Part shown: positions 1 to 24,053 of the stretch, piece after piece
Numbering within the stretch: the stretch's first letter is position 1
Layout of the letters: each line of letters starts with the position of its first letter
IMG/VR virus record: IMGVR_UViG_3300037558_000564
Location: 1 to 24,739 of that record
Strand: one strand, 5' to 3'
DNA from: a virus
Length of the DNA: 24,739 bases
Program-made: the position numbers and the translations under genes
The notes under the pieces: model-generated
The model's database searches: none
What the model was told of the DNA's origin: nothing
The model's input: only the letters and a program-made list of their open reading frames with translations

Positions 1-3000
1 TTATTTTTTCAACTCTTTGCTGCTCTTTACCTAAAGCTTTTATTTCTTTTTTAGTAAGCCCTAAATCTAAAAGCATATCAACTTGCTCTTGAGTTTTAGT
101 TTCTTTTTTCATTGTAATAACATCTTCGATGGCTTGCTCTTCAGGAGTTAATACTTTTGCAGCATCAAATCCACCATAGTATCCTAATCCTACGTCCCAG
201 GTAGACCAACCTAATCCTAGCGCAACTTTTTGCCAAAGGGCGGATTGTTCGTTTACAATACCTCGCATGCTATTAATTTTTTTAATAACTCTATCTAGCG
301 GAATATTAGTAAGACCTGTTACTATTTGAGCACCTGCTAAATAAGCTGGATTGTCTAAACTAAAACCTTTGCTTTTAATATCTTTCATATTCCAGCTAAA
401 GCTCCTAAGTCCTCCGTTTATTTTTTGAACTTTAGACCCAAGAGGCGGTGAAAAGCCTAGCAAATCAAATACGGCTTCTTCGTATGCAGGTCTGTTTTTA
501 GCATGCTGCTTACCTAATTCCATTAAAGTACTTTTTAATGCAACTACTGCAGCTCCACCAATTCCTAAACCTTTAAGCTGGGAGTCAATCATACCATTTG
601 CAACTCTTGAAATTTTTTCTTTTTTCTTAGCGTCTTTTACTTCTTTGTCTTCGTCTTCACCAAACCCTAATGCAAACACCGCTTGCTGTAGTGCATTGAA
701 TATTAAATTCTGTACAGCGCCGTAATAAACTATTTTAGATACATTAGTTTTCCAATCGCCACGACCATTTATAAGGTCTTGACCGGCTCTTTTTTGTATA
801 CGAGCATATTGCATTGGTGTATTTGCCCAGGCTAATATAACACGTCCAGCACCAGATGCTTGCTGTTGACTAATTCTATTTGGATTACTAGATTGTTGGC
901 TTTCTTCTGCTATTTGCCTAAAGTCTTCAAAAGCTTGTGCTTCTGCAGCTTTTTGCTCCATGCCTTTGCCTACTAAAGCTTTTACTCTGTTTCTGTAAAA
1001 AGTAGATCCTCCAGTTGCAATTGCAAAACTATCCGCAAATCTTGTCATTACAAAACCTTTGCTAAGCAAAAATGCTATAGCCGCTTTTACTTTATTTTTA
1101 GAATCTCTTACAGCATCTGCAATTTCAGATTCACTTACATTTATTTTAAGACCTTCTCTTCTTTCAACCAAGTAATCAGAATTCATAAGCGTCATAAAGT
1201 CACTCCAGAATTGTTTTTGATTTGCAAATGCTAAACCCGCCTTTACTATGTTATTATCACCCCAGTTTATAAAGTTTACCGCGGATATAGTTTGAAGCAA
1301 TGCAGATCTTGTATTTAAAAACATTACAGCACCTACTGAATTGTTTAACCAGTCAAGCAATCCGTCTGTTACGCTGTTGCCTCCAGGAGGTCTGTTGCTG
1401 CCAGATTTCATTCTTCGCAATGAATCTTCCATAGCTTTACGCCATCTAGTTCCATATGCAGCTTCCATTTTGTTCATGTTATCTTCAGAAAATATGATGT
1501 CTACATTTTCTCTAAACTCTTGCTGATATTCTGCTCTGTTTACTTTGTTAATATCATTTATAATATCGCTAGTTATATTTCCACCTAACCAATTATCCCC
1601 TGGTTTTGGATAAGGTTTACCTTTTTGAATTTTCATTAATTCATTAGTAAAAACGCTAAGCTCAGCATTGTTATCTACAAAATCGTTTAATTCTTTTATA
1701 TCTTTTTTAGACAGCCCAGGTATATTCATACCTTGTTTTGACCATACAGCTACACGAACAGCATAGGAAAAAGTAAACCCTCCAATGCCAGTTGGCTTAC
1801 TTAAGCTTTTAGGTAAAGTTTTTAGGTTTTGTTTTAATGCTTTAAAATCATTTGCCGCGGCTATTTTAGCTTGCGTTACAGCTGACTCAGCTCTATCATA
1901 AGGATCAAGCAAATTTGTTTTAAGAAACGCCATTTGAGCATCACCTTTTTTGCCTTTACCTAGCATTTTATACAATAACCCTGTAAAGTCTTCAGCACTT
2001 GCTGGAATAAAGAAATTAAATCGACCTTTACTAGCGCCAACTGTTTGAGCTCTAGCGGCAGAATATTGTTTATAAGTTTTAATACCAGAAGAATCTTCAA
2101 TCATATCATTTGTAATGATATCAAAAGTTTCTATTTTACTTTCTTTTGCTAATTGAACTTTAGACTTAACATCTATTTGACTTAATACATTTTTAACAGC
2201 CTGCACATTTTTAATAGCATCATCTGCAAAATAAAAATCATTATAACCCTCTGCTGCTTTACCCATTATCCAGCCAGCTTTTGCTTCAGCTGCGCCATCG
2301 CTTAATCCTGTTATATTTTTTAAAGGTATGTCAATACCGTTTGCTTTCATAAAAGCTTTTATAGGCCCATCAGCATTTTGAGGTCTTGCTGTAAGTATAA
2401 ATACATCTTCAGTTCCTTTAGCGTCTGCTATTTTTTGAGCAACTTCAAACAAAGGTCCTTTCTTGCCTTCAACAACTTTACTAAATTCTGTAAAATCAAA
2501 CTCTGCGCCTTGCGATTCAAGTTCAGATGCCTGCTGAGCAAATTGAGTTGCGTTTATTTTTTTGTTAGTTCCGTCAGGCATATTAACAATAACCATGCTT
2601 TTTGATTTTGCTAGTGTATCATCAAAATCAAATACTCTAATTTTTTTAACAGGTTGATTTAGTTTTCTAGCGTTGTTTAACGCTTTATCAGTTTTTTCTA
2701 ATGCATTTACAGCTGTTTGTACAGTTATAAATCTGTCATACTTTATATCATTTGGTATTAAATCACTATCAAGCTTTGAAGCCATTGACTTTCCTGGTAC
2801 TAAAGGTATAAAAGCTTTAATAACTTTTGCTACGTTATAATCAGAATTTTCTATAGTTTCTAGTATAGCTTCGTTTTGAATACTAGAAGCTTGCACTTTT
2901 TCGTTAGCATTATATCCGTCATATATTTTTGGGTCAATACCAAAACCACTTTCTTCAGCAACTGTTTTTCCTGTATTAGGATTTTTAAGTGTATTTAAAT

Positions 3001-6000
3001 CAATTCCTGCGGCAGCAAGCCTTGTTATAGGATTATTAAATATGCTTTGCCCTTCTACTAACGTAGAATCCAATTTAGCTTGATCCAATAAATCATCATC
3101 AAATTTAGAAAGCTGCGTTTGATAATAGTTTTCTTTTATAGCTTTCATTGTAGGAACAGCAGCATTGCTTTTAATGGCTAAAAGTATAGACGCACCAACT
3201 ACTGAAGCAGGAGGATTGTGTTCTTCTCTATATTTTTTTCCTTCTCTTTGTTGCTTTTTTGAATTAATACCCCCATATCTCATTTCGATTGAGCGATATT
3301 TAAATTGTGCAGATATTTTTACTAAACCTGTAGTAGCTTGATAACTTTGTATAATAATGGCAGCAGCTATATCTAATGACATACCATCTGCAACAGCATC
3401 AGTAAGTTGGTTGACCACATGATCCAAAACAACCATGTTATCTTTAGCTCTTTGTGTAGCTAGTTCTCTAACTTTTTTATTTTTAGAAAAAGCTTGAATA
3501 GGCGACACTCGCATAGCTTTAGGGCCATTATAAGCCTTAGCACTTTCTATTAGCTTTTTGTAAGCAGGGTCACTTTTGCCGTAATATAACCTACCGGGTT
3601 TAGCAATCCAATTTGTTATGCCTTTAGTATCAATTTCAACAAATTTACCGTCTGTTGTTTTTCCAAACTTAATGGGTTTTTTTATCCCAGCTTCAGAAGC
3701 TTGCTTAGCAGAAGAATACATTTTTCCTCCTTTAATACCATAAAAAGTTTGTTTACCACCGCTACCCATTTTGCCAGCTTCTATAACAGCAGCGTCTAAT
3801 CCATACTCAACAACAGCTTTCTGCATAGCAACCTGCTGAGCTTCTCTGTTAGATCCATTTATAGGCGGAGACTTAAAACCTAGCTCGTTAGCTAATTGTT
3901 TTTTGTTTTTTAAGACAGACACCTCTTTAAATGCGGTTTTAATTTTAGGAGGCATAGCATCAAAGCTTTCCAGCTTGCTAGCCATCGATGTATTCTTGCC
4001 GGCTGCAACATCCTGTTTAGTTTCTAAACTTAAATTTGTATCGGATCTTACAATTTCGTTTGTTACAAGTCTTCCATACAAATTAGCAATACCTTTTAAA
4101 GCTTGAGCTTGAGAAGATCTAGCTTTAAACCCTTCTTGTTTCTTACCATCAACAATACCAAATGCTTCTAAAAATTTTGCTTTTGTAATTCCTTTATTTA
4201 AAACAAATGGCGAAAGCCCAGCACCTTTGCCAAGTCTATTTTTTTTAGTATAAAACGCATCAAGCAATCCTTTCGGCACGCCCGTAGAGGTGCCTAAAAG
4301 CTTCTCTGTCGCGGCTTCTACTACTGCGCCCTGTGGTAATATCTTTAATAGTTTATCGGCGTTCTTATTAACAAATTGCTGTATAGCTGTTGCGTCTCCT
4401 TTTGATAAATTAGCAGCGGGTACAGTAAGTTTTTTAACCGGTATTCCAATTTCTTCTGCAATAATTTCAGGAGCTAAATCACCAAGTTTTTTAAACGTTA
4501 AATTTTTAGGGTCAATGCCTTCAATCTTTTCTTGTATTTGCTCTTTAATCTTGTCTACGGCATTGTTAGATATAAGAGAGCTAGGCTTTATTTTTCTTTT
4601 TACAGGCTTTGTAGCAACTTCTGTTGTTACTTCTTCAGCCATTACGCCTTTAGCTTCTGTAACATCAGTTGTAAATTCTTCTCCTAAAACTCTTTGAGAA
4701 GCTTCTATAGCTCTAGCTGGTAAAAATTTGTTTATATAAGCAGCTAATGGAACACCTGATTCAGGCTTGTATTCTTTAATTAAATCAATTATACCACGCT
4801 TACCTGTTTCTATTTCGTCTGTTAAAAGTTGGCGATCAAAATTAGGCGCTTCACTTCTTTTTTCTACTATTTTACTTACTATAGGCTTAAATTGCTCTAT
4901 AATTTCAAAAGTTCCATCTGTGCCTTTTGTTTCATAAATAGTTTGCACTTTTTCACTTGCCTTAACATTAGACTCTAGCTTGCTTTCTTTTGCAATTACA
5001 TCATTAGTTTCAGACTCAATTCTAGCTAATTCAACTTTAGCCAACTCACTGTCTATTGATTTAGTTTCACGAGCTCCTTTGGTTCTACCGTCAACTTTTT
5101 CAACTATTCCATCAACTAATTTGCCCTCCGCTCCTTCTCTAGCTATTTTAAGTTGTGCTTCACTTAATTTTTTACCAGAGTTAATTGTATTATTATATTC
5201 TCTTAAAAAATTAAAAACATCTAAGCCAGTATTAAATTCAATATTTAGCGGTTGCTTTTTATTAGATTTAAAAACATTAGATATTTTATCTTTTAATGCT
5301 TCAAAAAAGCTTTTTGTTTTTTCATTATAAACAATATCACCATCTGAAATAGCTTCACTAACCAAAGGAATGACTTCCTCATAGGTCATTTCAGCTGAGT
5401 AGTTTTTATCATCTATATAGTCCTGAAGCCTGGCTCTCATCTTAGCGCCACCTTGAATTTGTTTATTATTTAATATTTCCGTTATTAAAGACTTCCCAAA
5501 TGTTATTGCTAGCTCTGGGTTGTTTTGGAATGTTTGTTTAAAAAATGGGTGTAAAAGTTCGTGTTGATCTGTAGTATACTTCTGTCTTTCTGCAGCAACT
5601 CTATCGTTTATTAATATAATAGTTTCACCATCAAACTCAATAGCCTGTCCATATCCTAATGACTTTTGCACCTTAGCTCCTTTACCTGCAAGCTCTTTAA
5701 CTCTAGCATCGTAAGATTCTTGTGTGCCGTAATTTTCAAATTTTGCTCCTAATTGTTCCGCTATTAATCTTGCACCTTCTCTAGTTTTAGAGCTTTCAAT
5801 GTCGGTAACCCTATCCTGCACAATACGTTCCTCAATTTGCAATTTTACTTCATCTAATTGCGCTTGATCTCCATTGTTATTAGTGATATCAGAGTCATTT
5901 ACTTTTTTAATTTTTTCTTGTAATTTATTTCTTTGGATTAAAAGCTTAGCTATAGGTGCTTGGTTTTCAAAATTAACACCAGCTTCTGATAATATTTTTG

Positions 6001-8272
6001 CACTATTTTGTGTATTTATAAAATTTTGCTTTATTATATCTGCTTCTCCTTGAGTCATTTCCCCGCGATTAACTTCTGCTTTTAGCTGCGTATTTAGTAA
6101 GCTTAAAGAGCCATTAACGTTTGATATTTTTAAAGAAGTTTCAGACACGTTAGAATCCCCAAAGGCGTTGTACATGTAATCAACCTTACCGTCTTCCAAT
6201 AAAGTATTAACCCTTCTATTAGTTGCCGCTTGGTTTAAATAAGATCTTCCTGCTCCAAGGGCTGTAAGTTTTGACCCAAAAGCACCTCCTATTAAAAATG
6301 TATCAAATCCTTCTGCAAACTTTTTATTAAAATCTATTTCGTTTCCAGTGTATAAATATTCTGCTAATTCATTTAAAACAAATGTACCTGTTTCTGATCC
6401 ACCCTCTGAAGCAAAACCTAAACCTATATCTTTAAAATAATTTCCTAAATTTTTAAAAGCATCATCTGCATTTTTTGGCCTAAAACCAAAAGCTTTTTTA
6501 GCTAAACCTCTAGTTACAATTTCTAGAGCACCCTCAGATACACCAATCATCATAGAATAACCTGTAAGCGCTAGATCTAAATCATTACCTTCCCTTTGTT
6601 TTTCTCTACTAGCAGCAGAAGCCTCACCTACTATTAACAAAGGTATGCCCACATAAGGTATTGCAACCTCAATTAAACTAGTAGCAGAGGTTAAAGCATC
6701 AGTAGACAGCCTAGTCATTTGACTTACAAAGCTTCTATCAAAAACTCCCTCTGTAATAGTTTGATCAAATACACGCATAGAGGAGTTTATCCTGTCTACT
6801 TCTCTAAACATTTCATCTGATATGTTTAATAAATAATTAGCAACCATTCCTTGATCACCTCCAGGAGTCATTCCCGCTAGCTTATTTATTGCTCTAGCTC
6901 TTTGTTCGTAAGGCAAAGCATTTAAAGCTGTTAATGTTTTATCGTCAAGAGTAATAGAAGCTATTGTTTGATTAATATAACTTGGTATACTTAAAACTTT
7001 ACCCCCTATACGAATAGCTCCTGCTTTAAGACCTTTGCCTAAACGGTCTCCAAATTCTAAGCGTTCTGCGTTTTCAGAATTTTGTTGCATAGTTGATAGT
7101 ACTACACCAAATTTATCTTGCTCAGTTGTTAGGTTATAATCTTCAGCGGTTAATTGCATTACAGAAGTAGCTTTTTTGCCTGTTCTTGCTTCGTAATTAT
7201 CAAAAGCCTGTTGGTCGTTTGCTTTAGGAATTTCTTGCTGTTTCCCTTTTCTATAGAATCCGCCTTTCTCATCGTAAAGCGCTTGCTCAGGGTTATTTTT
7301 TAATTTACCATCAGTATCCCTTAAGTTATTCATTTCAGCTATTTCCTGATTTGTAGGGCCTTCCTTTATTTTTTTTGCAAAGGTATAATCCTCTACTAAT
7401 TCATTTCTATTTTTTAATAAATTATTATAAAGAACTGCCTCTTCTTTAGTGTAAATAATAGGCTCTCCTTTATCATTGAAATTAAAATCAGTAGTAATAA
7501 TTTCATCATATTTTTCTATTTGAATCTCCAAAGGAACAGGCTTATAACCGGGAGCATAAGGGCCTACATAAGGATTTTCTTCTTTTACAAGCTCTCCTTT
7601 TGAGTCCATTTTCCATATATTAGGATCATCTCCTTCTTTAATTGGCTGATCTAAAGGTATAGTAGAGGGTACTAAAGTATTGTTATTAAGTTGATTTTGT
7701 CTTTCAATAGCTTTAATTCTTCTTTTTTCAGCTTGTCTTTTTCTTTTTTTAAAATCTTTTAGCTGTTTTTCTTGCTCTTCATTTAAGTGACCTAATTCTC
7801 CTGCTATGCTAAAAATAGCAGTGCTATTATTTTCTAATTTCCAATTTTCTGCACCTTCTTTTTTTTGGTAGTACTCTATGTTTCCTTGCTCATCAACGTT
7901 CCATTTAAAATCGTAACTATTAGCTGTGTACGTTTGATCTTTAGATACAACAGAATTAAGCTTTTCGTTTTGCTTTTCTTGTTTTTTAAAATCATTTAAA
8001 GATACGCCAAATGAATCTTGAAACATATCACTAAATACTCCTGTGTAGTATTTGGATTTTCCACTTCCAGAAGTTGAATTCTCGGACGCTGCATTGTTTT
8101 TCCCTGGTGCAGACACATCCGTCTTTTCCTCCACAACAGGGTCTATCTTTACTTTTTCAACAACTTCTTCCTCAACTTTAGGTTGGTTTTTCTTTTTCCA
8201 CTCTTGAACTTTAGCAGGTATATCTATAGCTCCTTGTTCTTGTAGTGACTGTACGTATTCTAGTAATGTCAT
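1..8272 (-). CDS. Giant multidomain internal-virion / polyvalent-type protein, partial (C-terminus beyond left edge)
   Basis: One uninterrupted minus-strand frame starts at ATG 8272-8270 (MTLLEYVQSL...) and is still open at position 2, giving at least 2,757 residues. It begins 5 nt after the previous stop. Regions by residue: 1-370 charged and helical; 533-548 strongly hydrophobic (IEVAIPYVGIPLLIV) inside an Ala/Gly-rich helical area; about 880-985 zincin-like with HELLH at 904-908; 1142-1205 resembling sigma-70 region 2; about 1875-2035 HAD phosphatase with D1882, D1884, T1961, D2017 and D2018; about 2075 to the end a module opening near SAEDFTGLLYKMLGKGKKGD, with hydrophobic stretches near 2315-2345, 2510-2535 and 2567-2585. 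Large phage polyvalent and ejection proteins combine enzymes and hydrophobic segments in this way. Its place after two smaller ejection-type genes suggests a T7 gp16-like internal protein ejected at infection. That role is inferred. The motifs are read directly. Confidence 0.85.
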   Translation of the reverse strand, partial: MTLLEYVQSLQEQGAIDIPAKVQEWKKKNQPKVEEEVVEKVKIDPVVEEKTDVSAPGKNNAASENSTSGSGKSKYYTGVFSDMFQDSFGVSLNDFKKQEKQNEKLNSVVSKDQTYTANSYDFKWNVDEQGNIEYYQKKEGAENWKLENNSTAIFSIAGELGHLNEEQEKQLKDFKKRKRQAEKRRIKAIERQNQLNNNTLVPSTIPLDQPIKEGDDPNIWKMDSKGELVKEENPYVGPYAPGYKPVPLEIQIEKYDEIITTDFNFNDKGEPIIYTKEEAVLYNNLLKNRNELVEDYTFAKKIKEGPTNQEIAEMNNLRDTDGKLKNNPEQALYDEKGGFYRKGKQQEIPKANDQQAFDNYEARTGKKATSVMQLTAEDYNLTTEQDKFGVVLSTMQQNSENAERLEFGDRLGKGLKAGAIRIGGKVLSIPSYINQTIASITLDDKTLTALNALPYEQRARAINKLAGMTPGGDQGMVANYLLNISDEMFREVDRINSSMRVFDQTITEGVFDRSFVSQMTRLSTDALTSATSLIEVAIPYVGIPLLIVGEASAASREKQREGNDLDLALTGYSMMIGVSEGALEIVTRGLAKKAFGFRPKNADDAFKNLGNYFKDIGLGFASEGGSETGTFVLNELAEYLYTGNEIDFNKKFAEGFDTFLIGGAFGSKLTALGAGRSYLNQAATNRRVNTLLEDGKVDYMYNAFGDSNVSETSLKISNVNGSLSLLNTQLKAEVNRGEMTQGEADIIKQNFINTQNSAKILSEAGVNFENQAPIAKLLIQRNKLQEKIKKVNDSDITNNNGDQAQLDEVKLQIEERIVQDRVTDIESSKTREGARLIAEQLGAKFENYGTQESYDARVKELAGKGAKVQKSLGYGQAIEFDGETIILINDRVAAERQKYTTDQHELLHPFFKQTFQNNPELAITFGKSLITEILNNKQIQGGAKMRARLQDYIDDKNYSAEMTYEEVIPLVSEAISDGDIVYNEKTKSFFEALKDKISNVFKSNKKQPLNIEFNTGLDVFNFLREYNNTINSGKKLSEAQLKIAREGAEGKLVDGIVEKVDGRTKGARETKSIDSELAKVELARIESETNDVIAKESKLESNVKASEKVQTIYETKGTDGTFEIIEQFKPIVSKIVEKRSEAPNFDRQLLTDEIETGKRGIIDLIKEYKPESGVPLAAYINKFLPARAIEASQRVLGEEFTTDVTEAKGVMAEEVTTEVATKPVKRKIKPSSLISNNAVDKIKEQIQEKIEGIDPKNLTFKKLGDLAPEIIAEEIGIPVKKLTVPAANLSKGDATAIQQFVNKNADKLLKILPQGAVVEAATEKLLGTSTGVPKGLLDAFYTKKNRLGKGAGLSPFVLNKGITKAKFLEAFGIVDGKKQEGFKARSSQAQALKGIANLYGRLVTNEIVRSDTNLSLETKQDVAAGKNTSMASKLESFDAMPPKIKTAFKEVSVLKNKKQLANELGFKSPPINGSNREAQQVAMQKAVVEYGLDAAVIEAGKMGSGGKQTFYGIKGGKMYSSAKQASEAGIKKPIKFGKTTDGKFVEIDTKGITNWIAKPGRLYYGKSDPAYKKLIESAKAYNGPKAMRVSPIQAFSKNKKVRELATQRAKDNMVVLDHVVNQLTDAVADGMSLDIAAAIIIQSYQATTGLVKISAQFKYRSIEMRYGGINSKKQQREGKKYREEHNPPASVVGASILLAIKSNAAVPTMKAIKENYYQTQLSKFDDDLLDQAKLDSTLVEGQSIFNNPITRLAAAGIDLNTLKNPNTGKTVAEESGFGIDPKIYDGYNANEKVQASSIQNEAILETIENSDYNVAKVIKAFIPLVPGKSMASKLDSDLIPNDIKYDRFITVQTAVNALEKTDKALNNARKLNQPVKKIRVFDFDDTLAKSKSMVIVNMPDGTNKKINATQFAQQASELESQGAEFDFTEFSKVVEGKKGPLFEVAQKIADAKGTEDVFILTARPQNADGPIKAFMKANGIDIPLKNITGLSDGAAEAKAGWIMGKAAEGYNDFYFADDAIKNVQAVKNVLSQIDVKSKVQLAKESKIETFDIITNDMIEDSSGIKTYKQYSAARAQTVGASKGRFNFFIPASAEDFTGLLYKMLGKGKKGDAQMAFLKTNLLDPYDRAESAVTQAKIAAANDFKALKQNLKTLPKSLSKPTGIGGFTFSYAVRVAVWSKQGMNIPGLSKKDIKELNDFVDNNAELSVFTNELMKIQKGKPYPKPGDNWLGGNITSDIINDINKVNRAEYQQEFRENVDIIFSEDNMNKMEAAYGTRWRKAMEDSLRRMKSGSNRPPGGNSVTDGLLDWLNNSVGAVMFLNTRSALLQTISAVNFINWGDNNIVKAGLAFANQKQFWSDFMTLMNSDYLVERREGLKINVSESEIADAVRDSKNKVKAAIAFLLSKGFVMTRFADSFAIATGGSTFYRNRVKALVGKGMEQKAAEAQAFEDFRQIAEESQQSSNPNRISQQQASGAGRVILAWANTPMQYARIQKRAGQDLINGRGDWKTNVSKIVYYGAVQNLIFNALQQAVFALGFGEDEDKEVKDAKKKEKISRVANGMIDSQLKGLGIGGAAVVALKSTLMELGKQHAKNRPAYEEAVFDLLGFSPPLGSKVQKINGGLRSFSWNMKDIKSKGFSLDNPAYLAGAQIVTGLTNIPLDRVIKKINSMRGIVNEQSALWQKVALGLGWSTWDVGLGYYGGFDAAKVLTPEEQAIEDVITMKKETKTQEQVDMLLDLGLTKKEIKALGKEQQRVEKI
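2168..2650 (-). other. HAD-superfamily phosphatase domain inside the giant protein
   Basis: Residues about 1875-2035 carry all recognisable HAD motifs in order. Motif I is VFDFDDTLA (nucleophile D1882, acid/base D1884). Motif II is VFILTARPQ (T1961). A Lys-containing helix that could supply motif III follows (AEAKAGWIMGKAAEGY). Motif IV is FYFADDAIKNV (D2017, D2018). The spacing fits a compact HAD with little cap, similar in style to polynucleotide 3'-phosphatase or small-molecule phosphatase members. Catalytic residues appear intact. The substrate cannot be told from sequence. Such a domain embedded in an internal virion protein suggests an enzyme delivered into the host at infection, which is inference. 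Confidence 0.75.
5318..5635 (-). other. Zincin-like metallopeptidase domain inside the giant protein
   Basis: Residues about 880-985 of the giant frame contain H904-E905-L906-L907-H908, preceded by a short hydrophobic strand (ETIILIND) and Q903. This is the usual layout of a zincin active-site helix: two zinc-binding histidines flanking the catalytic glutamate. An acidic helix about 57 residues later (MTYEEVIPLVSEAISD, E965/E966 or E973) could give the third ligand, as in gluzincins. HExxH peptidase domains are known in phage polyvalent proteins, where self-processing or attack on host proteins has been proposed. The motif is seen; the fold, third ligand and activity are inferred. Confidence 0.6.
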
Positions 8273-8277
8273 TTAAT

Positions 8278-9378
8278 TTAATTTAAGTTGTTATCATCTA
8301 AGAATTTCTGAGCTTTTGCTTTTTTAGCTTCTGCTAAATCAAATACTGCTGCATCTTCTTTTACTGTAGGTATCTGATTTTTTGTAAATTGCTCTAGATA
8401 ATTATTCATAAAGTATTCTTTGTATTTTGTTTCAAATAAAACTTTTTTATCTTGAGCTAAAGGTAAGTCTAACTCGTAGCTCCAACTAGAGCCTGCTGCG
8501 TTTGCATTTTGAGCCATTTGAGCGTCTTCACTAATGCTTGTGTCTTTAGATATATAAACGTTCCAAGCAGCCACTACGTCTTGCTCAGAGCTCATTAAAC
8601 CAGCAACCTCAGCATTTATAAAGGGTGTTACTTTCTTTTCAATTTTATTCATGTCAAACTTAAGTACATTTTTTCCTTTGCCCTCACCTAAATCTATAAT
8701 TTCATAATCAAAAGAACCATCCGCGTTTTTAATAATAAACTCTTCGCTTATTTTAGCGTTAGCTTTTAATTCTTTATTTTCATTAATCATTTCTTGCATA
8801 AACAAACCAGTTTCAGGTAATAGCCTTAACATATCTTTTCCTATGTTTGGTGTTGAAACCACTAAAGAGGTATCTGAATCTAATAAAGCACTCAATGAAG
8901 AGCTGTTAATAACTAAAGGAGGTTGCAATGCTGGTCCTATAAAAGCTATTTGTTGTGATCCATTTTGTAATAAATCCAAGTAAACTTGGTAGCCGTCTGT
9001 TTTTGAAAATCCAGGTTTACCTGTCATTACGCTATTAGCTGCTGCATATCTGTAATCGTTGTTAGGATCAAAGCTTGATTCCTCAGTTACACTTAGTTCT
9101 GATATTACAGATTCTAAAAAATTTAATGAGACTTGAGGTGCTTCCTCTAATTGTTTTAACTGCTGTAATTCTAAAGCGCAATGTTCAGACTCGCATTTAT
9201 TAGAGTCAATAGCTATTTTTAATTTAGCATAGTATTTACCGGCCAGCCTGTATGCGTTGTCTAAAAGCTGAAAGTTATAATCACTGTCGCTAGCAACAAA
9301 AGCTTTATTATAAGCAATAGCATTACTTTCGTTAAATTGCTTTAAAAATAAGTTTTGAAGTATGTTATTGTTTTCCAT
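8278..9378 (-). CDS. Putative internal virion / ejection protein (T7 gp15-like by position)
   Basis: A 366-aa soluble, acidic, mostly helical protein starting MENNNILQNL and ending at TAA 8280-8278. No signal peptide or membrane segment is visible, and I recognise no enzymatic motif. Two cysteines lie close together (NKCESEHC, about residues 61-67). The C-terminal third is rich in Lys, Asp, Ala and Glu and probably helical. The gene sits 6 nt downstream of the 230-aa glycine-rich protein and 5 nt upstream of the giant frame, so the three are almost certainly co-translated. In T7-like phages the middle gene of such a trio (gp15) is an ejected protein that forms part of the trans-envelope channel. 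That parallel rests on order and size only. The leader CAATTAATAAAAC-ATG lacks a Shine-Dalgarno sequence. Confidence 0.8.
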   Translation of the reverse strand: MENNNILQNLFLKQFNESNAIAYNKAFVASDSDYNFQLLDNAYRLAGKYYAKLKIAIDSNKCESEHCALELQQLKQLEEAPQVSLNFLESVISELSVTEESSFDPNNDYRYAAANSVMTGKPGFSKTDGYQVYLDLLQNGSQQIAFIGPALQPPLVINSSSLSALLDSDTSLVVSTPNIGKDMLRLLPETGLFMQEMINENKELKANAKISEEFIIKNADGSFDYEIIDLGEGKGKNVLKFDMNKIEKKVTPFINAEVAGLMSSEQDVVAAWNVYISKDTSISEDAQMAQNANAAGSSWSYELDLPLAQDKKVLFETKYKEYFMNNYLEQFTKNQIPTVKEDAAVFDLAEAKKAKAQKFLDDNNLN

Positions 9379-9384
9379 GTTTTA

Positions 9385-10077
9385 TTAATTGTTTGATGGA
9401 GTAGTTGAAGATGTTTTTGGGTCAAATAATCCAGGCGTTGCGGCAATACTACCTAAAGAATTAAACATACCCCCTATAGCGCTTGCTTGGTCTTTGTTTG
9501 CTTGTGCCTCTGCTTGCTTAGCCATACCTAACTGAGCTGCAGTTCTGTCTAATTGAGCAACTTCTCTTCCTTCTCTTGTGCTAAACATAAATTGTTCACC
9601 AGCAACATCTGCTTGTTGTAATCTTTGTGCTTCAGCCATTTTTTGTTGTTGCAAATTAGCTTCTCCCGCGGCTCTTTTGTCTTCATTTGTTTTTTCTTGC
9701 GCTTCAATACTAGCTGCTACTCCTTTTTTAGATTTTAAAGCCGCTTGAGCTAATGCTGTAGCTCCACCTGCGCTACCGCCTGTTTGTCGTATAGTGTCTA
9801 ATGTATTTGCTAAAGATATATCAGCTTCTTCTATTTGCATTTCTGCAGCGGCAGTAGCTACAGATAAATTTGCAAAAGGATTACTAACCATACTACTTAA
9901 GTCCACTACTCCTTCGTAAGGGTTTATTATGGCTTGACGATTTTTTTCTAAAGTATTTAATTTATTATTAAGTCTTCGCCTTTCTCTAGCCGCGGCTCTA
10001 GCTCTTTTTTTAGCAGCGCTAGAACCAAAAAGGCCGCCTGCTATTGACATAGCGCCGCCTATTATTGCTCCTACCAT
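9385..10077 (-). CDS. Small glycine/alanine-rich membrane-active virion protein (T7 gp14-like / DNA-injection type)
   Basis: A 230-aa protein with an N-terminal glycine-rich hydrophobic segment (GAIIGGAMSIAGGLFGSS, residues 3-20) followed at once by a very basic stretch (AAKKRARAAARERRR). The rest is Ala/Gln-rich helix, with a second small hydrophobic Gly-rich segment near the end (AIGGMFNSLGSIAATPGLF). This pattern is typical of phage DNA-injection and internal virion proteins that insert in the host envelope. The segment is not a normal cleavable signal peptide. The gene follows the 506-aa tail gene after 12 nt and precedes the 366-aa gene by 6 nt. By order it would be the first member of a gp14-gp15-gp16-like set. 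The functional call is inferred from composition and context. Confidence 0.78.
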   Translation of the reverse strand: MVGAIIGGAMSIAGGLFGSSAAKKRARAAARERRRLNNKLNTLEKNRQAIINPYEGVVDLSSMVSNPFANLSVATAAAEMQIEEADISLANTLDTIRQTGGSAGGATALAQAALKSKKGVAASIEAQEKTNEDKRAAGEANLQQQKMAEAQRLQQADVAGEQFMFSTREGREVAQLDRTAAQLGMAKQAEAQANKDQASAIGGMFNSLGSIAATPGLFDPKTSSTTPSNN

Positions 10078-10089
10078 ATTTTTATATTT

Positions 10090-11610
10090 TTAATATCCAT
10101 TGTTCATTGTATATGCGCTTTCTATTGAAAACAATTGTTTTTCACCGCCATTATCGGTTGTTTGATCTGTTGCCATAACTCCCGTAACAAAATAACCTTT
10201 TATTCCAGAAACAGCTTCTCCAAAAATTACTTCACCTGGCATTGGCGTGCTAGCATTAATTAAATTAGACACGTATCTGTTTTCTTTTCTATTAAACCCT
10301 GCATAGTATCTAGGCACAGGGGGGTTTATTGTTCCAAAACCAGGTGGATTTTGGTTTGGTTGTCTATCGTAATCTGATCTAGGTATAGCAACTCCATTTG
10401 TGTTAAAAGCGTATTCACCTTCATAATAGCTGTTTATGCCACTTGATTGATCAAAATACATTTCCAAAGCTAAATTAGAAGGATTTAAATTTTTACCAGT
10501 AGCATCTGATGAAAGAGATAATAATTTCCAACCATTGCTGCCTTCATAGCCTATTGTTTTAAATGTTTTTGACCTAACTGGTTCCGCATTTAGTATAAAT
10601 GTTACATTAGCGCCTGGGTTTGTTTGAGCATAAAAATCCGCTCTGTTTGCTCTGGTATCATAATGTTTCCATAATTTTAAAGTGCCCACCCTGTCCACCT
10701 GCACAGAATAAAAATTAGCTCCTAAACTAAACATTACTTGGGGAGCATAGGAATATCTACTTGTCCAGCCTCGTACAGATTCATCAAATGATAACGTATT
10801 GTACACTTGTGGTATTACTGTTGGTGCGCTGTACTGTTGTAAAGAAGCAACATACTGATTATTGTATATATCGTAGGCGCCTAAAACAGAACCTACGCCA
10901 GCAGTTGTATTTAAATTATTTAAATTATCTCTAAAAAAATCTTTCATATTAATAGCAGAAATCTCATCAATACCTGATCTACTTAATCGCAGTATTGCAT
11001 TGTTTTCTTTATCTGCAAAGTACTTATGATATCCATAAATAGCAAAGCTTTCTGGATTTTTACTTATTCCATATTTACCGGCATAAGGTTGTATAACTCC
11101 TATAGTTAAATTGCTTGCAGTAACTGCGCCTCCGCCTTCAGCTGCATATATAGCATCTTTGTCTACCAATGCTCTACTAACTTTCCTTTCTTGGAATATT
11201 ACTAAATTAGTATCCTCAGCATATAGTTTTTGTACAGAGCCATTAGCTGGATCAGCACTTTTAGTTATATCGTCTGCTGTAGAAAAAACATTTGTATTAT
11301 TAATCCCTGTTCTTGAATTAAATATACCTGAGTATATTAATGTATTAAATCTTGTTACTGCATTTGGCTCGTCTTCGACTAAATATGCTTTAGCGCCATA
11401 ATCAGTAGAAGTGTTATTATAACCTCCTCTTATACGCGCTTCTTCTATGGCCCAATTACTTGGCATATTAGTAATACCAACTACAGGATAACCACCAGCT
11501 ACATTGTTAGGTATACCGTCTGAGCCATTCCACATTATATTATTGTCAGCTGTCGCAACCTTCTTTAAAACAAAAGAGTTAAAATACTTTACTTCGACTA
11601 CTGCTCCCAT
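10090..11610 (-). CDS. Tail hub / tail-stabilisation-type structural protein, 506 aa
   Basis: A beta-rich protein rich in aromatic residues, without signal peptide or membrane segment, starting MGAVVEVKYFNSFVLKK. Recognisable stretches are NWAIEEARIRGGYNN (51-65), VQKLYAEDTNLVIFQERKVS (126-145), GISKNPESFAIYGYHKYFAD (181-200), ILRLSRSGIDEIS (206-218) and SFDESVRGWTSRYSYAPQ (274-291), then FYSV...LWKHY (300-317). I associate these with tail stabilisation or hub proteins of crAss-like and uncultured marine podoviral phages, from memory. It starts 34 nt after the 1439-aa gene. The codon just 5' of CCT-ATG is TAA in this frame, so the start is well defined and the two genes are separate. It probably forms part of the same short-tail assembly as the 1439-aa product. 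Confidence 0.72.
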   Translation of the reverse strand: MGAVVEVKYFNSFVLKKVATADNNIMWNGSDGIPNNVAGGYPVVGITNMPSNWAIEEARIRGGYNNTSTDYGAKAYLVEDEPNAVTRFNTLIYSGIFNSRTGINNTNVFSTADDITKSADPANGSVQKLYAEDTNLVIFQERKVSRALVDKDAIYAAEGGGAVTASNLTIGVIQPYAGKYGISKNPESFAIYGYHKYFADKENNAILRLSRSGIDEISAINMKDFFRDNLNNLNTTAGVGSVLGAYDIYNNQYVASLQQYSAPTVIPQVYNTLSFDESVRGWTSRYSYAPQVMFSLGANFYSVQVDRVGTLKLWKHYDTRANRADFYAQTNPGANVTFILNAEPVRSKTFKTIGYEGSNGWKLLSLSSDATGKNLNPSNLALEMYFDQSSGINSYYEGEYAFNTNGVAIPRSDYDRQPNQNPPGFGTINPPVPRYYAGFNRKENRYVSNLINASTPMPGEVIFGEAVSGIKGYFVTGVMATDQTTDNGGEKQLFSIESAYTMNNGY

Positions 11611-18948: not shown

Positions 18949-20424
18949 TTAGATTCCTTTGAATAATACAAAGTTGTTAGCAGCTTGTGTTACTAAACAT
19001 CTTTCAGATAGGAAGTTTACTTCCATAGCATCTAAAGTAGATGTAAATGCACCACCGGCAGAACCAGTTAACCAAGATTTCATTCTTCTATCATCAGCTT
19101 GTGAAGCTCTATATCTTACGTGTAAGAAAGGTCTTCTGATGTTAGTTCCTAATACTTGATCGTATACTGTTGAAGTTCCAGCAGGTACTAATACTCCTTC
19201 TACTGAATTGATACCTACAATTCCACCTCTTGTAGAAGCGTCATTTAAGTATTTCCAATCTGTTTTGTAAAAGTCGTAAGAACCTCTTCTAAATCCTGAA
19301 AATCCAAGATTTAAAGCCATTTCTTCTGAATTTTCGAATAATCCGAAAGCAGTACCTCCTTGAGATCCTCCTGAGATTGCAGCTAGCATATCATCAAAAT
19401 CCAAAGCAGTTTGTCTTTGTAAGAATAACATGTTTTCTTCAATAGCCCCTTGAGTGTCTAAGTTTTTAAGAATTGCATCAAATTCGTCAAGTCCAGCAGC
19501 AGCAGTAAATCCTACTTCTACATTACCACGAGATTGAATAGCAGCAAATAATCCTTCAGATCCAGGCATAGTAGCGTTAGCATAACCTGCTCCACCTGCT
19601 CCACCTGCGCCTATCTGGCTAAATTCACTTTCGATCATACTCATTTCTAAGTAATCTTCAAAACGCAATCTTGTTTCAGATTCAGCTTTTAAATACCATA
19701 AGTATCCAGATGTTCCGTCTTCAGTTGCAACTTCTACCCATCCAATTTGAGCCATATCAGATCCAGATACTATGTACTGGCTTCTTAGGATAATTGGTGA
19801 ATTAGAATATTGTGTAAACTGAGGTTCAACAGATTGTCTTGCCGCAGAGTTACCAACTCCAGCACCTATTGTAGTTCCTTTTGTGTAAGAAGAACCATAT
19901 ACAAATACTTTAATTGATCCTGAAGTTAAAGCAGCACCTCCAACAAGAGCAGCTCCACCGAAAGCAGATACAGCAATTGTTCCGTTAGCGCCAGCGGCAA
20001 CTGCAGGAATAGAAGCGGTAACAATACCTTTTTGCTCAGCACCTGTTGCAGTGTCTAAAAGAACAACTGTATCATTTACTGATATAACATTTTGTACCCC
20101 TGGAAGACCAGCAGCAGGTGCTACTGTAATAAGTCCACCAGCAAACGTACAATTGTCGTAAGATATGTGTAATCTATTTTGTTCTGACCAAATTACTTGA
20201 TCACTTGTCATTGGCATTTCAGCGCCAACCATTCTTAAGAAGCCAGATAACGTACGGTTTCCGTAACGCTCTACTTCAGCTTCATATACTTCTGGCAAAT
20301 ACTGCTGAGCGAAAGAATTTGAATCGCCCGCGTTAGCACCGCCGTTAAATTGTAGATAGTTGCTATTTAATAGCTCCTGTCTAGAGGAAGGGATTAAGCT
20401 TCCAAATTGTGGAGTTAAAGCCAT
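18949..20424 (-). CDS. Major capsid protein
   Basis: A 491-aa protein starting MALTPQFGSLIPSSRQELL. The signature stretch (YLPEVYEAEVERYGNRTLSG, then FLRMVGAEMPMTSDQVIWSE, about residues 43-82) is one that I associate with HK97-fold major capsid proteins of crAss-like and marine phages. A Gly/Ala/Val-rich beta insertion lies at about 94-190. The C-terminal part (RRPFLHVRYRASQADDRRMK and a Cys near the end) continues the capsid body. Size, placement directly after the scaffold gene, and a base composition visibly richer in G and C than neighbours (expected for a highly expressed gene) all fit. The leader is AACTAAAAAACTAAAAAATT-ATG without Shine-Dalgarno. A hairpin follows the gene. The capsid call is strong; the exact family is from memory. 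Confidence 0.85.
   Translation of the reverse strand: MALTPQFGSLIPSSRQELLNSNYLQFNGGANAGDSNSFAQQYLPEVYEAEVERYGNRTLSGFLRMVGAEMPMTSDQVIWSEQNRLHISYDNCTFAGGLITVAPAAGLPGVQNVISVNDTVVLLDTATGAEQKGIVTASIPAVAAGANGTIAVSAFGGAALVGGAALTSGSIKVFVYGSSYTKGTTIGAGVGNSAARQSVEPQFTQYSNSPIILRSQYIVSGSDMAQIGWVEVATEDGTSGYLWYLKAESETRLRFEDYLEMSMIESEFSQIGAGGAGGAGYANATMPGSEGLFAAIQSRGNVEVGFTAAAGLDEFDAILKNLDTQGAIEENMLFLQRQTALDFDDMLAAISGGSQGGTAFGLFENSEEMALNLGFSGFRRGSYDFYKTDWKYLNDASTRGGIVGINSVEGVLVPAGTSTVYDQVLGTNIRRPFLHVRYRASQADDRRMKSWLTGSAGGAFTSTLDAMEVNFLSERCLVTQAANNFVLFKGI
19586..19612 (-). repeat. Nine-base tandem repeat in the capsid gene (Gly-Ala-Gly runs)
   Basis: The plus strand has cctgctcca twice, then the diverged copy cctgcgcct. 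On the coding strand it encodes the glycine-rich turn IGAGGAGGAGYAN of the capsid protein. It could expand or contract by slippage in steps of three residues. It is probably just a flexible loop. Confidence 0.6.
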
Positions 20425-20438
20425 AATTTTTTAGTTTT

Positions 20439-21635
20439 TTAGTTAAATTTTTTTGTTTTAATTCGTAAGCTTTTGGAATCAGCACCGCTTATAGCTTTTA
20501 CCTTAAGTCCATTTATAAACACATCTCCTTGAGTAGACCTAGCTTTAGTACTACTTAAGTTTTTAGAACTGTTTACAACTTCCTTTACAGCATCTGCTTT
20601 TCCTTGCTCATAAAAATGAGCTGCGATCTTATCCACGTTGTCGGCCGCATACATAGCTTTGTGATAACCTTTTGTATCAGTAACATTACCTTCAGCGTCT
20701 AGGAACTTCCCGACAAGGTTTTTAATGTTTGATTGATTTTCTGCAACTTTATCACGATTTTGAATATTGTACTTATAATTCTTTTCTCCAACCTTAATAT
20801 CGAAACCTTCGAAATTGTCATTAAAAAGCTGTTTAGTACTTTCTTTAAATTGTGTATGTTGTTGCTCCGCTTGTTCTTGCTGCTCGTTATATCGGTTAAA
20901 AAAGTCCATAGCTTTTTGTTGATCTTGAGTAACGCCCGGTCTCAACTTGATCTCGTCGTAATACTTACTCTTAGTTTCTTCCAAATAGTTTTTGGCTTTT
21001 GCAACTTCTTCTTTAAACGCAATTTTCTTTTTGCGCATATCTTTTTCCTCATCAATATCTTCGTCATAAACAAAGTCTTCTAAAATGAGATCTATATCTT
21101 CGCCTTCTAAGTAAGGCTTTTCTTTTTTGTAATATTCTTTTAACAATGTAACATCATCCACTTTGGAATAGTCCGCATTTAGTCTAGTATAGTCCTCTAT
21201 TGTCCCACCTGTATCTTCCATAAAAGAAACAAGCTTTTCAATATTTTCCGGTAATTCTTTACCAAGAATTTTTTTGTCTTCCTTAGCTTTTTCAACTTCA
21301 GCTTTTACTTCTTCTACGCTATCTACTTTGACTTCTTTGATTGGAGAAAACCCTTCAACATCCTCGTTGGACTCTTGTACAGGTTCTCCCATCTTTGTGC
21401 TATCTCCGGATGGTTCTTCCACAGATACTTTCTCTGTTTCTCCGATTCGAATGGCATCTTCTTCTTGTTTAGGTATTGTTACTTTTTTAACGTCTGGCTC
21501 TAATTCAACTAAGGGTTCTTTAATATTAACCTTAACTGGCTCTTCGCTTACGTTTGCTAATTTTTTAGGAGTTTTCTTTTTAATTTTAAACTCACCTTCC
21601 TGTTTAACAGGTTCATTTGTTTTTGTTTCTGACAT
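20439..21635 (-). CDS. Putative scaffolding / head-assembly protein, 398 aa
   Basis: A highly charged, hydrophilic, mostly helical protein between portal and capsid genes, the standard place for a phage scaffold. Residues 1-110 are disordered and Glu/Lys/Pro/Val-rich. The middle has a very acidic stretch (DIDLILEDFVYDEDIDEEKD, about 180-199) followed by a coiled coil rich in Lys, Glu and Gln (about 200-275). The C-terminus is basic (KSLRIKTKKFN), as expected for a scaffold tail that contacts the capsid protein. No protease motif is visible, so scaffold removal by a protease encoded within it is not supported. The gene shares its 25-nt leader with the 274-aa gene and ends 14 nt before the capsid ATG. 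Function is inferred from composition and context. Confidence 0.75.
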   Translation of the reverse strand: MSETKTNEPVKQEGEFKIKKKTPKKLANVSEEPVKVNIKEPLVELEPDVKKVTIPKQEEDAIRIGETEKVSVEEPSGDSTKMGEPVQESNEDVEGFSPIKEVKVDSVEEVKAEVEKAKEDKKILGKELPENIEKLVSFMEDTGGTIEDYTRLNADYSKVDDVTLLKEYYKKEKPYLEGEDIDLILEDFVYDEDIDEEKDMRKKKIAFKEEVAKAKNYLEETKSKYYDEIKLRPGVTQDQQKAMDFFNRYNEQQEQAEQQHTQFKESTKQLFNDNFEGFDIKVGEKNYKYNIQNRDKVAENQSNIKNLVGKFLDAEGNVTDTKGYHKAMYAADNVDKIAAHFYEQGKADAVKEVVNSSKNLSSTKARSTQGDVFINGLKVKAISGADSKSLRIKTKKFN

Positions 21636-21657
21636 AATATAATATAATTAAATAGTT
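21633..21657 (-). promoter_or_regulatory. Shared AT-rich leader ending in the start codon of the scaffold gene
   Basis: The minus strand reads AACTATTTAATTATATTATATT-ATG, differing by one base from the leader of the 274-aa gene (18885-18861). It lies in the 30-nt gap after the portal gene, so any promoter would overlap the portal 3' end. No Shine-Dalgarno sequence is present. Confidence 0.55.
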
Positions 21658-21665
21658 GTTACTTT

Positions 21666-24053
21666 CTACATGAAAGCTTGCATGCCTTGATCAGGCTGAT
21701 TTTCAAAGTCTATTGGTAAGCCGTCATTTTTTCTTTGACTTATTAATTCACTTTGTTGTGTAGCTTCCATTTTGCTACGTTTATCTTTACGATCTTCAAT
21801 TGCTCCTTCTTTTTGTTGGATTGTTTGAACATCTAATTGTTTAAGTTGCATATCATATTGGAACTTTGTTTGCATTTTTTGCGCTTCTAATTGCGCCGCT
21901 ATTTCCATACGTTGTATTTCCATTTGATTTGTAGCTTGCTCAAATTGCACTTTAGAACTCATTATAGCTTCTTGCTTTTGAACTTCAGCCATAGCTGTTT
22001 TTTCTGCAGTATCAGCCTGTGCTTGCCCTTGAGCTGCAATATTAGCTTGCTGATTAGCTTGATCTTGTTTAGCTTTTGCTTTACGCTTTATTTTAAGCAT
22101 TTGATTTGCTAGCTTAAGATTTTTAATTTGTCTTAAGTCTATAGCGTCCTCTAAATCTAAACTTCCTTGTTGTAATGAAACTTGAATGTTTGCCTCAAGC
22201 TGTGCTAGCTCTTCGTCATCTGGCTCTAATTCTAAGAATATACCAAAGTCATGCAGGTTTAAATTTATAACCTCGTCTAAAGTTTTTATATTAAACGTTG
22301 ATATAGAATTTTGTAATGCACTTCTTGTAAGCGGAAATTCTAAAGCATCTGCTATTTTAAGAGCAATGTTTTCAGCTAGTTTAAGTGTTATATAAAGGCT
22401 AGACTGGTTAATATGTCTAGTAGCAACATTGGACGCATTAGCGGCCATTTTTTGCAGTCCCACGAGCGAATTCTTATCCATTGCTGTGCCGTCTCTTGCT
22501 TCGTTTAAGCCCGTTACATCACGTATCATTTGTAAATAATATTGATACGTTTGTATAAGTGCTGCAATTTTAGCTTGACCGCTTGAGCTATTAAGTTCTT
22601 GGATAGGTACTTTACCGGCATTCATATCACCGTCTTGTGTAAGTGATCTACCTACAATAGAACCTGTTTGGAAATACATATTAAGTGCTTCTGCAGGATT
22701 GTAGTTTGTGCCATTACCTAAATCAACTTCTGCAAGTCCGTCCATATCTAAGTATACACCGTCTGGTACCATACGAGATAAAACTTGCTGCAGCTTTAAA
22801 TGAGTTAATTGAATCATATCAGCAAAACCAATACATTTGCTTACAATAGATTCAATTCTTCCTTTGTACATTCTAGGTGCACATATAGCATAATTCATTT
22901 CAACCTTAGTTGTATCTGCTACGGGCCTTGACATATTTTCTGCCAACTCCCATTTAAGCATATCATTATTGCCTAATACTTTTGCTCCTGTATATAATAC
23001 TTCAATAGATCTTGATACTCTTTCAAAATTATCATTTTCAGGTGGGTTAAATGTATCTGGCTTTTCTAAAGCTTTCATTAACCCTTGTTCTGTTTGCTTT
23101 ATTTTAAATACTTGATTATGATATGTTTTGTATTCAAAGTATAAAACTTGTACAGTATTTTTATCGTAATTACCCCACCCCGTTACATATTGGCTGTTGC
23201 CTGGCATTTTTTGAATTCTAGCAAGTTCTTCTTCGGATATGTTAGGAAATTCTTTTTTAAGTTCAGGAATTGTTATAGACTTTACTTCGCCTACATAATA
23301 TATGTCATCAAAGTTTGGATCTTCCGTGTAAGAATAAATGGCATAAGCTGGATCTACATAATCAACTGTTACACCTTCTGCAGTATTAAAACCTGTTTTA
23401 GCAATAGCAATCCCTAGAACAGTTAAATCCATGTTTAATCTTTTCCTAGTAAGATCGTATTTGTTTTGAGCAAGCACAGATGATATAGCTTCTTCTTCTG
23501 CTATTTCAATTGATTGCTTGTAGCTTAGTTGCATATGAAGTTCAAGCTCTTCTTTAGACTCTGGTATTGTATCTATATTAGGTGTTTGGTATAAATCAAT
23601 TCCTAACGTTTGTTTTAAGCTATCTAAATATTCTTTAGCAACCATATCCTCATAAAGCATAGAAGCATAGTCCGTTCTTTTCTTTATTGATTGAGGATCT
23701 TGTGCATATGCTTTTATATCATAAGACTTAGATGAAATACCATTAACTACTATATCTACAAATTTAGATAATATAGGGACAGGCTTCCAGTCTAAGTTTA
23801 AATAAGATAAATCGCCATTAATTGACAGTTCATCTTTATACTTTTGTATTGATTGCTCTCCTCGAGCATATAATCTTAATTGGTGAAATTGATTCCAACT
23901 AGTTAAATATCTATTACCGTTAGTTCGACCTTGACCAAACCATTCATATTCAATAGCCTGCCCAACTTGCGTACCATATTCCAAACTCGCTTTCTCTGCA
24001 TCACTTACTACCTGACTTGGAAAAGCGCTGTTTGTGTTAGTATATATACTCAT
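21666..24053 (-). CDS. Portal protein
   Basis: A 795-aa protein directly after TerL, the usual portal position. The body (WNQFHQLRLYARGEQSIQKY near residue 60, then WKPVPILSKFVDIVVNGISS near 95) and the helix-rich portion around 515-545 (MIRDVTGLNEARDGTAMDKN) match what I know of portals of crAss-like and related Bacteroidota phages. From about residue 647 to 765 comes a long Gln/Ala/Lys-rich helical tail (AQGQAQADTAEKTAMAEVQK ...), expected to form the portal barrel or extend into the capsid. The protein ends QPDQGMQAFM. TerL's stop and the portal start touch without a gap (TAA-ATG), indicating coupled translation. The stop is TAG at 21668-21666. A dodecameric ring at the packaging vertex is known for the family, not shown here. 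Confidence 0.88.
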   Translation of the reverse strand: MSIYTNTNSAFPSQVVSDAEKASLEYGTQVGQAIEYEWFGQGRTNGNRYLTSWNQFHQLRLYARGEQSIQKYKDELSINGDLSYLNLDWKPVPILSKFVDIVVNGISSKSYDIKAYAQDPQSIKKRTDYASMLYEDMVAKEYLDSLKQTLGIDLYQTPNIDTIPESKEELELHMQLSYKQSIEIAEEEAISSVLAQNKYDLTRKRLNMDLTVLGIAIAKTGFNTAEGVTVDYVDPAYAIYSYTEDPNFDDIYYVGEVKSITIPELKKEFPNISEEELARIQKMPGNSQYVTGWGNYDKNTVQVLYFEYKTYHNQVFKIKQTEQGLMKALEKPDTFNPPENDNFERVSRSIEVLYTGAKVLGNNDMLKWELAENMSRPVADTTKVEMNYAICAPRMYKGRIESIVSKCIGFADMIQLTHLKLQQVLSRMVPDGVYLDMDGLAEVDLGNGTNYNPAEALNMYFQTGSIVGRSLTQDGDMNAGKVPIQELNSSSGQAKIAALIQTYQYYLQMIRDVTGLNEARDGTAMDKNSLVGLQKMAANASNVATRHINQSSLYITLKLAENIALKIADALEFPLTRSALQNSISTFNIKTLDEVINLNLHDFGIFLELEPDDEELAQLEANIQVSLQQGSLDLEDAIDLRQIKNLKLANQMLKIKRKAKAKQDQANQQANIAAQGQAQADTAEKTAMAEVQKQEAIMSSKVQFEQATNQMEIQRMEIAAQLEAQKMQTKFQYDMQLKQLDVQTIQQKEGAIEDRKDKRSKMEATQQSELISQRKNDGLPIDFENQPDQGMQAFM

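Follow-up and report, generated by a model that had tools for sequence, protein, structure and literature searches.

What kind of protein is encoded by a frame that fills the first 8,272 nucleotides of a viral contig and runs off its end, and could it be delivered into the host cell together with the phage DNA? The stretch analysed here (the window, 24,739 nucleotides) is the entire public IMG/VR record IMGVR_UViG_3300037558_000564, a linear virus fragment. We propose, with a probability of roughly 0.75, that the giant protein is the third and largest ejection protein (gp16 slot, polyvalent type) of a podovirus-like Bacteroidetes phage and that it is ejected with attached enzymes.

Results

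The giant frame

The initial annotation of this DNA described a continuous minus-strand frame of at least 2,757 codons that runs off the edge, and this description was borne out: the frame begins with ATG and is a single in-frame run without a stop, open at the window edge. The features of the locus are presented in Table 1. The remaining five frames of the same interval contain 95-385 stops per ~2,757 codons, and the differences between the giant and its nearest relative amount to 13.1, 8.0 and 31.1% at codon positions 1, 2 and 3, respectively. The absence of stops from this one frame and the third-position bias of the differences thus show that it is truly coding and under selection. Because the contig comes from a metagenome and breaks off within the gene, an artefact of assembly or a frame open by chance was also considered; however, equally long frames occur in tens of independent assemblies and the differences are distributed over the codon positions as in coding DNA under selection, which rules out this explanation for practical purposes.

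Complete copies of the giant in close relatives measure 2,733-3,139 aa, so that ~90-270 aa at the end are all that the window copy lacks; in those complete relatives that were inspected, this 3' part carries the last helical unit a second time. In relatives L003 (18647 onward) and L010 (18812 onward), the stop of the giant and the start of a short gene seem to overlap; the small product of that gene has a single hydrophobic segment and looks like a holin by eye. No RNA families or tRNAs were found in the window.

Table 1 Coordinates of the giant frame, its predicted parts and the adjoining late genes in the window
Feature	Residues	Coordinates	Strand	Basis or remark
Giant ORF		2..8272	-	2,757 codons, ATG start, 3' end cut by contig edge
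Conserved N-terminal segment, starts MTLLEYVQSL	1-170	7763..8272	-	HMM matches in many relatives
Helical segment with membrane-helix-like stretch (530-548)	400-700	6173..7075	-	Panino similarity, hydropathy
Predicted zinc peptidase domain	~860-1030	5183..5695	-	HELLH 904-908 and downstream E966
Candidate sigma-70 region-2-like helix bundle (DEIETGKRGIIDLIKEYKPESGVPLAAYINKFLPARAIEAS)	~1112-1198	4679..4939	-	borderline profile and structure tests
Domain after the sigma-like part	1255-1440	3953..4510	-	usually exchanged together with the sigma-like part
E-H domain	~1600-1800	2873..3475	-	invariant E-H, nearly invariant Q and R
HAD phosphatase domain (by motifs and model)	1870-2060	2093..2665	-	FDFDDT 1881, LTAR 1960, FADD 2015
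All-helical C-terminal module	2060-2710	143..2095	-	most conserved part
C-terminal helical unit, first copy	2720-2757	2..115	-	second copy downstream in complete relatives
366-aa protein, T7 gp15 / phi40:1 gp100 slot		8278..9378	-	position
230-aa T7 gp14-like ejection protein		9385..10077	-	Pfam T7_gp14 E 7e-4, below curated cut-off
Muzzle-like tail protein, crassvirus type		10090..11610	-	Pfam crAss_MUZ_C E 1.6e-5, just under cut-off
Terminase end, portal, scaffold-like, major capsid		18949..24737	-	PHROG matches; homologous to phi40:1 gp091-gp093

Gene neighbourhood

The large genes of the window share one orientation and all are late genes, in the order terminase end, portal, scaffold-like, capsid, ring-type structural, muzzle-type, gp14-like, 366-aa protein and giant. 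The capsid and packaging genes place the giant in the late operon. The gene-order part of the earlier argument is supported: the giant lies directly behind this series, and the arrangement is kept in nearly all relatives. The slot order is that of T7, with three consecutive genes after the muzzle gene, the first of them gp14-like, and this order also recurs in relatives.

The giant was further said to follow two smaller ejection-type genes. This holds for the gp14-like gene, whose product has a glycine-rich hydrophobic N-terminus and also matches phi40:1 gp099 (E 4e-4); the 366-aa protein has no family match in Pfam or PHROG, but it occupies the slot of phi40:1 gp100. The muzzle-like protein additionally matches phrog_14478 and, at E 2e-37, phi40:1 gp097. 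The proteins encoded at 11645-15964 and 10090-11610 correspond to different parts of that single 1,324-aa phi40:1 protein, which points to the splitting or fusion of a tail-module gene.

Relatives of the portal protein come from phages of Flavobacterium, Cellulophaga, Tenacibaculum and Maribacter and from one unassigned record. The best explanation is that the window derives from a marine flavobacterial phage related to Pervagoviridae and Elemovirus phages.

Predicted domains of the giant protein

Which activities could such a chain carry? The initial annotation claimed a layout of several activities, and unrelated enzyme-like domains are indeed predicted within one chain, as in polyvalent proteins. 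The claimed peptidase site is present and conserved: HELLH begins at residue 904, and in an alignment of 44 divergent sequences (A8) the Glu and second His of HExxH and the downstream Glu are invariant. Two members of the zincin alignment match Peptidase_M78 (best E 6.9e-7), and a PDB search with the zincin-domain profile gave no match. On these sequence grounds, we refer to the HELLH region as a predicted zinc peptidase of the zincin type.

The E-H domain is named after its Glu and His, which are invariant in an alignment of 42 sequences (A7) with 13-25% identity for most pairs. Its AF2 pLDDT exceeds 90 over most of its length, and a PDB search with its profile gave no match.

The claimed phosphatase domain is also recovered, with the conserved HAD motif FDFDDT at residue 1881. 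The motifs FDFDDT, LTAR, Lys and FADD are conserved in alignments A3/A5, and AF2 models the region as alternating strands and helices, Rossmann-like. In agreement with these motifs, class C acid phosphatases top the Foldseek PDB list for the HAD-containing model (probability 0.97-0.98, E ~0.4), and the region matches phrog_415 at E 0.002. Judged by motifs and predicted fold, residues 1870-2060 are a HAD phosphatase domain. In L066, L068, L071-L074, L120 and L121, this domain is interrupted shortly after motif I by an insertion of ~200 residues, at the usual site of HAD cap domains; L029, L125 and L126 are without any HAD match.

The C-terminal module, helical by AF2, retains 75-98% protein identity in most blocks among close relatives, and this helical end of ~650 residues has no match in Pfam or PDB.

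The AF2 models of residues 855-1800 (mean pLDDT 81) and 1670-2757 (mean pLDDT 76) support separate domains, and all Foldseek PDB matches of both models lie above E 0.3. The structure prediction and structure search that had been proposed thus delineated domains and gave no significant PDB match. The middle model has matches in BFVD to two proteins of uncultured viruses (E 1.7e-12 and 6e-4), of which one bears the name UDP-N-acetylglucosamine kinase; relatives of the giant are therefore already in public databases, without a described function. Two candidates from the whole-protein profile search of PDB were set aside: SMC proteins as coiled-coil composition, and DNA polymerase IV as weak (E 0.08 or worse) and unconfirmed by later profiles.

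The N-terminal half and cassette exchange

In the close alignment, conservation is high over the C-terminal 880 residues, moderate in the zincin and poor in the N-terminal half. The conserved N-terminal segment has an invariant first Met and L4 among the aligned relatives, and residues 400-700 are the only part of the giant clearly similar to that of Maribacter phage Panino (E 7e-10). The hydrophobic modules of the initial annotation reduce to one membrane-helix-like segment at residues 530-548, the remainder being weakly hydrophobic.

Pfam gave no match on the window giant, which is without SLT and thus without an N-terminal lytic transglycosylase of the T7 gp16 type. Relatives do have peptidoglycan-cutting domains: L024 has an N-terminal GH108 and two sequences of alignment A2 have SLT. 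LysM occurs in one close relative; among nine divergent N-terminal regions of relatives, Pfam found GH108 again and nothing else.

DNA identity between the window and L010 is ~60% in the zincin, 85-95% over residues 1126-1425, 38-42% over residues 1426-1800 and 84-93% in the C-terminal module, and in L011 and L017 it shifts at the same borders. Blocks of 91-95% identity beside blocks of 38-42% within one gene indicate cassette exchange. Thus, the N-terminal and middle parts are swapped as cassettes between related phages, an exchange visible at the DNA level inside a single (putative) virion gene.

The sigma-like region

Is the helical stretch initially called sigma-like related to sigma factors at all? 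Pfam PF04542 (Sigma70_r2) has no match in the window, and several tests back the assignment, each of them borderline. When a profile of 65 relatives was compared with PDB, 20 sequences matched at E up to 1 (0.02-0.9), all of them sigma factors on the same profile stretch; these targets are mutually related and were therefore treated as a single result. The alignment to the top match, 8x6f, is divided over two weak domains, and with a narrower profile of 18 sequences two Piwi entries ranked above two sigma factors. Comparison by hhalign with sigma factors from four bacterial bins yielded P values of 3e-4 to 4e-4, against 0.28 or worse for five other parts of the giant. In the AF2 model, a run of helices at high pLDDT fits the order of region 2. 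Foldseek against viral models returned phage sigma factors at probabilities of 0.91 and 0.84, yet with E values of 0.2-0.3, and against PDB it returned several sigma chains among insignificant matches. These four tests agree in direction, none being decisive, and we lean towards a true region-2-like fold for residues ~1112-1198.

The tryptophan pair used in -10 melting is absent, since by eye against a sigma sequence the helix PLAAYINKFLPARAIEAS has the tyrosine only, and no region 4 (-35 binding) was seen in the giant. Consequently, the bundle could at most be a core-docking element and not a full sigma factor; docking on RNA polymerase is a less secure proposition than the fold.

Is there, then, a transcription machinery in these phages to which such an element could belong? 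A stand-alone sigma-like protein of ~213-265 aa (Sigma70_r2) is encoded in 10 of the 12 long relatives, in eight of them over the Pfam cut-off. Stand-alone sigma-70-type proteins of 253 aa with recognisable regions 2 and 4 lie in L157 (1148-1906), L158 (894-1652), L159 (542-1303, minus strand) and L160 (868-1626). No multi-subunit RNA polymerase matched over the cut-off in the 12 long relatives, whose contigs are possibly incomplete, and the DxDGD-type polymerase motif is absent from the close set of giants. The single-subunit polymerase family PF00940 was silent in the same 12 relatives, as was its control. An RNA polymerase of the crassvirus type was rejected for the giant, given no DxDGD motif and no multi-subunit match; one of the N4 type is improbable, given no Pfam match in the window copy and a single-subunit search whose control gave no signal. 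A sigma factor of their own and no detected multi-subunit polymerase fit phages that work through the host RNA polymerase, as far as these possibly incomplete contigs go.

Spread of the family

A single-sequence scan for the giant found 29 relatives, and a profile of the C-terminal module matched at least 349 IMG/VR contigs. The profile also had seven matches in genome contigs from metagenome bins, which may be phage contigs; these bins (L120-L126), named as bacteria or an archaeon, hold contigs of the phage family of the giant, probably binned phage contigs rather than prophages. Eighty of the 349 relatives were fetched, and the census covers 79 non-redundant copies with an N-terminus. The C-terminal module is present in 79/79 by construction, because the sample was drawn by it; HAD was found in 76/79, HExxH in ~75/79 and the sigma-like part in ~31/79, with a gp14-like gene upstream in 77/79 and a muzzle gene upstream in 76/79. 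With the exception of one frameshifted copy, the census copies are single long frames of ~2.2-3.4 thousand residues. In L085, one of 77 complete frames, the giant is broken near locus position 8290-8300 into two long overlapping frames, either by a sequencing error or by a real frameshift.

Discussion

A probable ejected giant and its alternatives

These data bring us back to the initial question of what the giant is. The best support for its packaging is positional and comes from phage phi40:1, in which gp099, gp100 and gp101 bear the note 'annotation based on experimental MS/MS proteomics analysis' (virion/structural), gp101 being in the slot of the giant. In favour of an ejection protein we also counted the fixed gene order, the conserved zinc residues and HAD motifs, the cassette exchange within the gene, the plan shared with N4 gp50, and the GH108 and SLT domains of relatives, which are reminiscent of T7 gp16. 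Against it we counted the size of the giant, ~310 kDa, which would have to pass through the tail, together with the non-homology to phi40:1 gp101, the silence of Pfam and Foldseek PDB matches all at E >0.3.

As an ejection protein, the giant would be packed in the capsid; once the gp14-like and gp15-slot proteins had opened a path across the envelope, it would exit by way of the tail, and the enzymes joined to it would reach the cell together with the first DNA. The frame, its domains, their conservation, the gene order and the cassette exchange are observed, whereas packaging, ejection and all biochemical activities are deduced. The helical C-terminal module might then be a common chassis serving packaging, or docking to portal, membrane or DNA. 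The zinc peptidase could separate modules or cut a host protein, the HAD domain may be an active phosphatase, and the sigma-2-like bundle could dock on host RNA polymerase. The exchange of N-terminal and middle modules between phages is what would be expected of parts that face host differences. More speculative, and in our view doubtful as a whole, is the proposal that an ejected giant with a sigma-region-2-like element captures host RNA polymerase at entry in phages with their own sigma factor but no polymerase, as a counterpart of the carried polymerase of N4 built of a chassis and exchangeable cassettes. A literature search for an ejected sigma-like domain gave nothing relevant beyond the N4 paper.

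Could the peptidase instead act during assembly? The giant might be a polyprotein cut into virion or assembly proteins, so that no multi-enzyme chain would be ejected. A zincin within independent domains joined by low-confidence linkers (AF2) suits this idea, as do the proposed peptidase processing of polyvalent proteins (PMC5512222) and the last late region of phi46:3, which consists of two genes, gp120 and gp121. However, the domains stand in a single frame in all but one of the fetched relatives, and we regard this explanation as unlikely. A poorer chance still is given to an internal virion protein that processes peptidoglycan and envelope, whose swapped modules serve wall passage only and whose enzyme-like domains are relics or structural. 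T7 gp16 carries a peptidoglycan-cutting domain and acts on the cell wall, and the GH108, SLT and LysM domains of relatives point the same way; yet the window giant has no such domain, and the retention of the zinc ligands, HAD motifs and E-H pair in highly diverged sequences speaks for active domains instead of relics.

The giant could also be an intracellular late enzyme and not a virion protein, its place as the last late gene being accidental. The lack of sequence homology to the MS-detected gp101 would agree with this, but the position after the muzzle and gp14-like genes is fixed in nearly all relatives and the same slot is virion-borne in phi40:1, and we consider it very improbable. Thus, a packaged and ejected giant is the reading that we retain. 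If packaging is confirmed, the giants, with at least 349 IMG/VR contigs by the C-terminal module, would be a large marine family with a new domain plan for ejected proteins. This raises testable questions: what role the conserved helical module has, whether the zinc peptidase targets its own chain or some protein of the host, and whether delivery of a sigma-like element from the virion can serve to take over host transcription.

Comparison with known systems

The description of the locus as a little-described system was too strong, because N4 gp50, crassvirus cargo and polyvalent proteins are already described (PMC12633501, PMC10172136, PMC5512222). The kind of protein is known, and the set of zinc peptidase, sigma-2-like bundle, E-H domain, HAD and helical C-terminal module is absent from Pfam, PHROGs and the literature searched.

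Cellulophaga phage phi40:1 (Pervagoviridae, Callevirus) has genes from portal through gp14-like that are homologous to those of the window and in the same order, and its gp101 (AGO47966.1) holds the same slot as the last late gene. In contrast to the giant, gp101 has 1,691 aa and no HExxH; the two proteins have no detectable sequence homology, and packaging of the giant is therefore argued from position. Sequence and profile comparison likewise found no homology of the giant to phi19:3 gp129 or phi46:3 gp120/gp121. The Elemovirus giant of Flavobacterium phage vB_FspP_elemoA_7-9A (QLF85284.1, 3,694 aa) occupies the same slot and carries a homologous zinc peptidase (hhalign P 5e-5), but its other modules differ, including DUF3293, and no HAD or C-terminal module was detected. 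PANI_CDS0069 of Panino, again in this slot, is homologous to residues 400-669 of the window giant (E 7e-10); it differs in its length of 1,829 aa, a tRNA-methyltransferase-like module and an LPD38 match (E 1.8e-5), with no zincin or HAD detected. LPD38 (PF18857) had no match in the window giant or the relatives tested, and profile comparison was not significant. In Cellulophaga phage phi46:3 (KC821622 66438-72957, L183), the slot is divided between gp120 (1,439 aa) and gp121 (626 aa), and gp121 and the LPD38 end of the giant of Panino are homologous.

In crassviruses, which have a related virion plan with a muzzle protein, the phiCrAss001 cargo proteins gp45-gp50 are encoded after the muzzle gene, are packaged and include RNA polymerase subunits (PMC10172136), whereas no DxDGD motif or multi-subunit domain was found in the giant family. 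In T7, the outer-membrane channel is formed by gp14 and the tunnel through the periplasm by gp15, and gp16, which extends as far as the inner membrane, recruits host RNA polymerase; N4 gp50, likewise of giant size and third among the ejection proteins, combines an HExxH domain with a large helical C-terminal domain that has no known relatives (PMC12633501). The giant resembles N4 vRNAP gp50 and the ejected polymerases of other schitoviruses in plan: in each, the third ejection slot is filled by a protein with a zincin and, behind it, a large helical end. A single-subunit RNA polymerase domain is present in N4 gp50, whereas none was found in the giant by a T7-type search whose control was silent.

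Among the domains that we saw named in the polyvalent-protein paper of Iyer et al. 2017 (PMC5512222), no sigma-2-like bundle, E-H domain or helical C-terminal module occurs, nor does that paper mention 'sigma factor'. Polyvalent proteins combine several unrelated enzyme-like domains per chain with a zincin peptidase and are encoded among late virion genes (PMC5512222), and the giant shows the same combination: multiple unrelated predicted domains, a zincin-like domain and late virion genes as neighbours.
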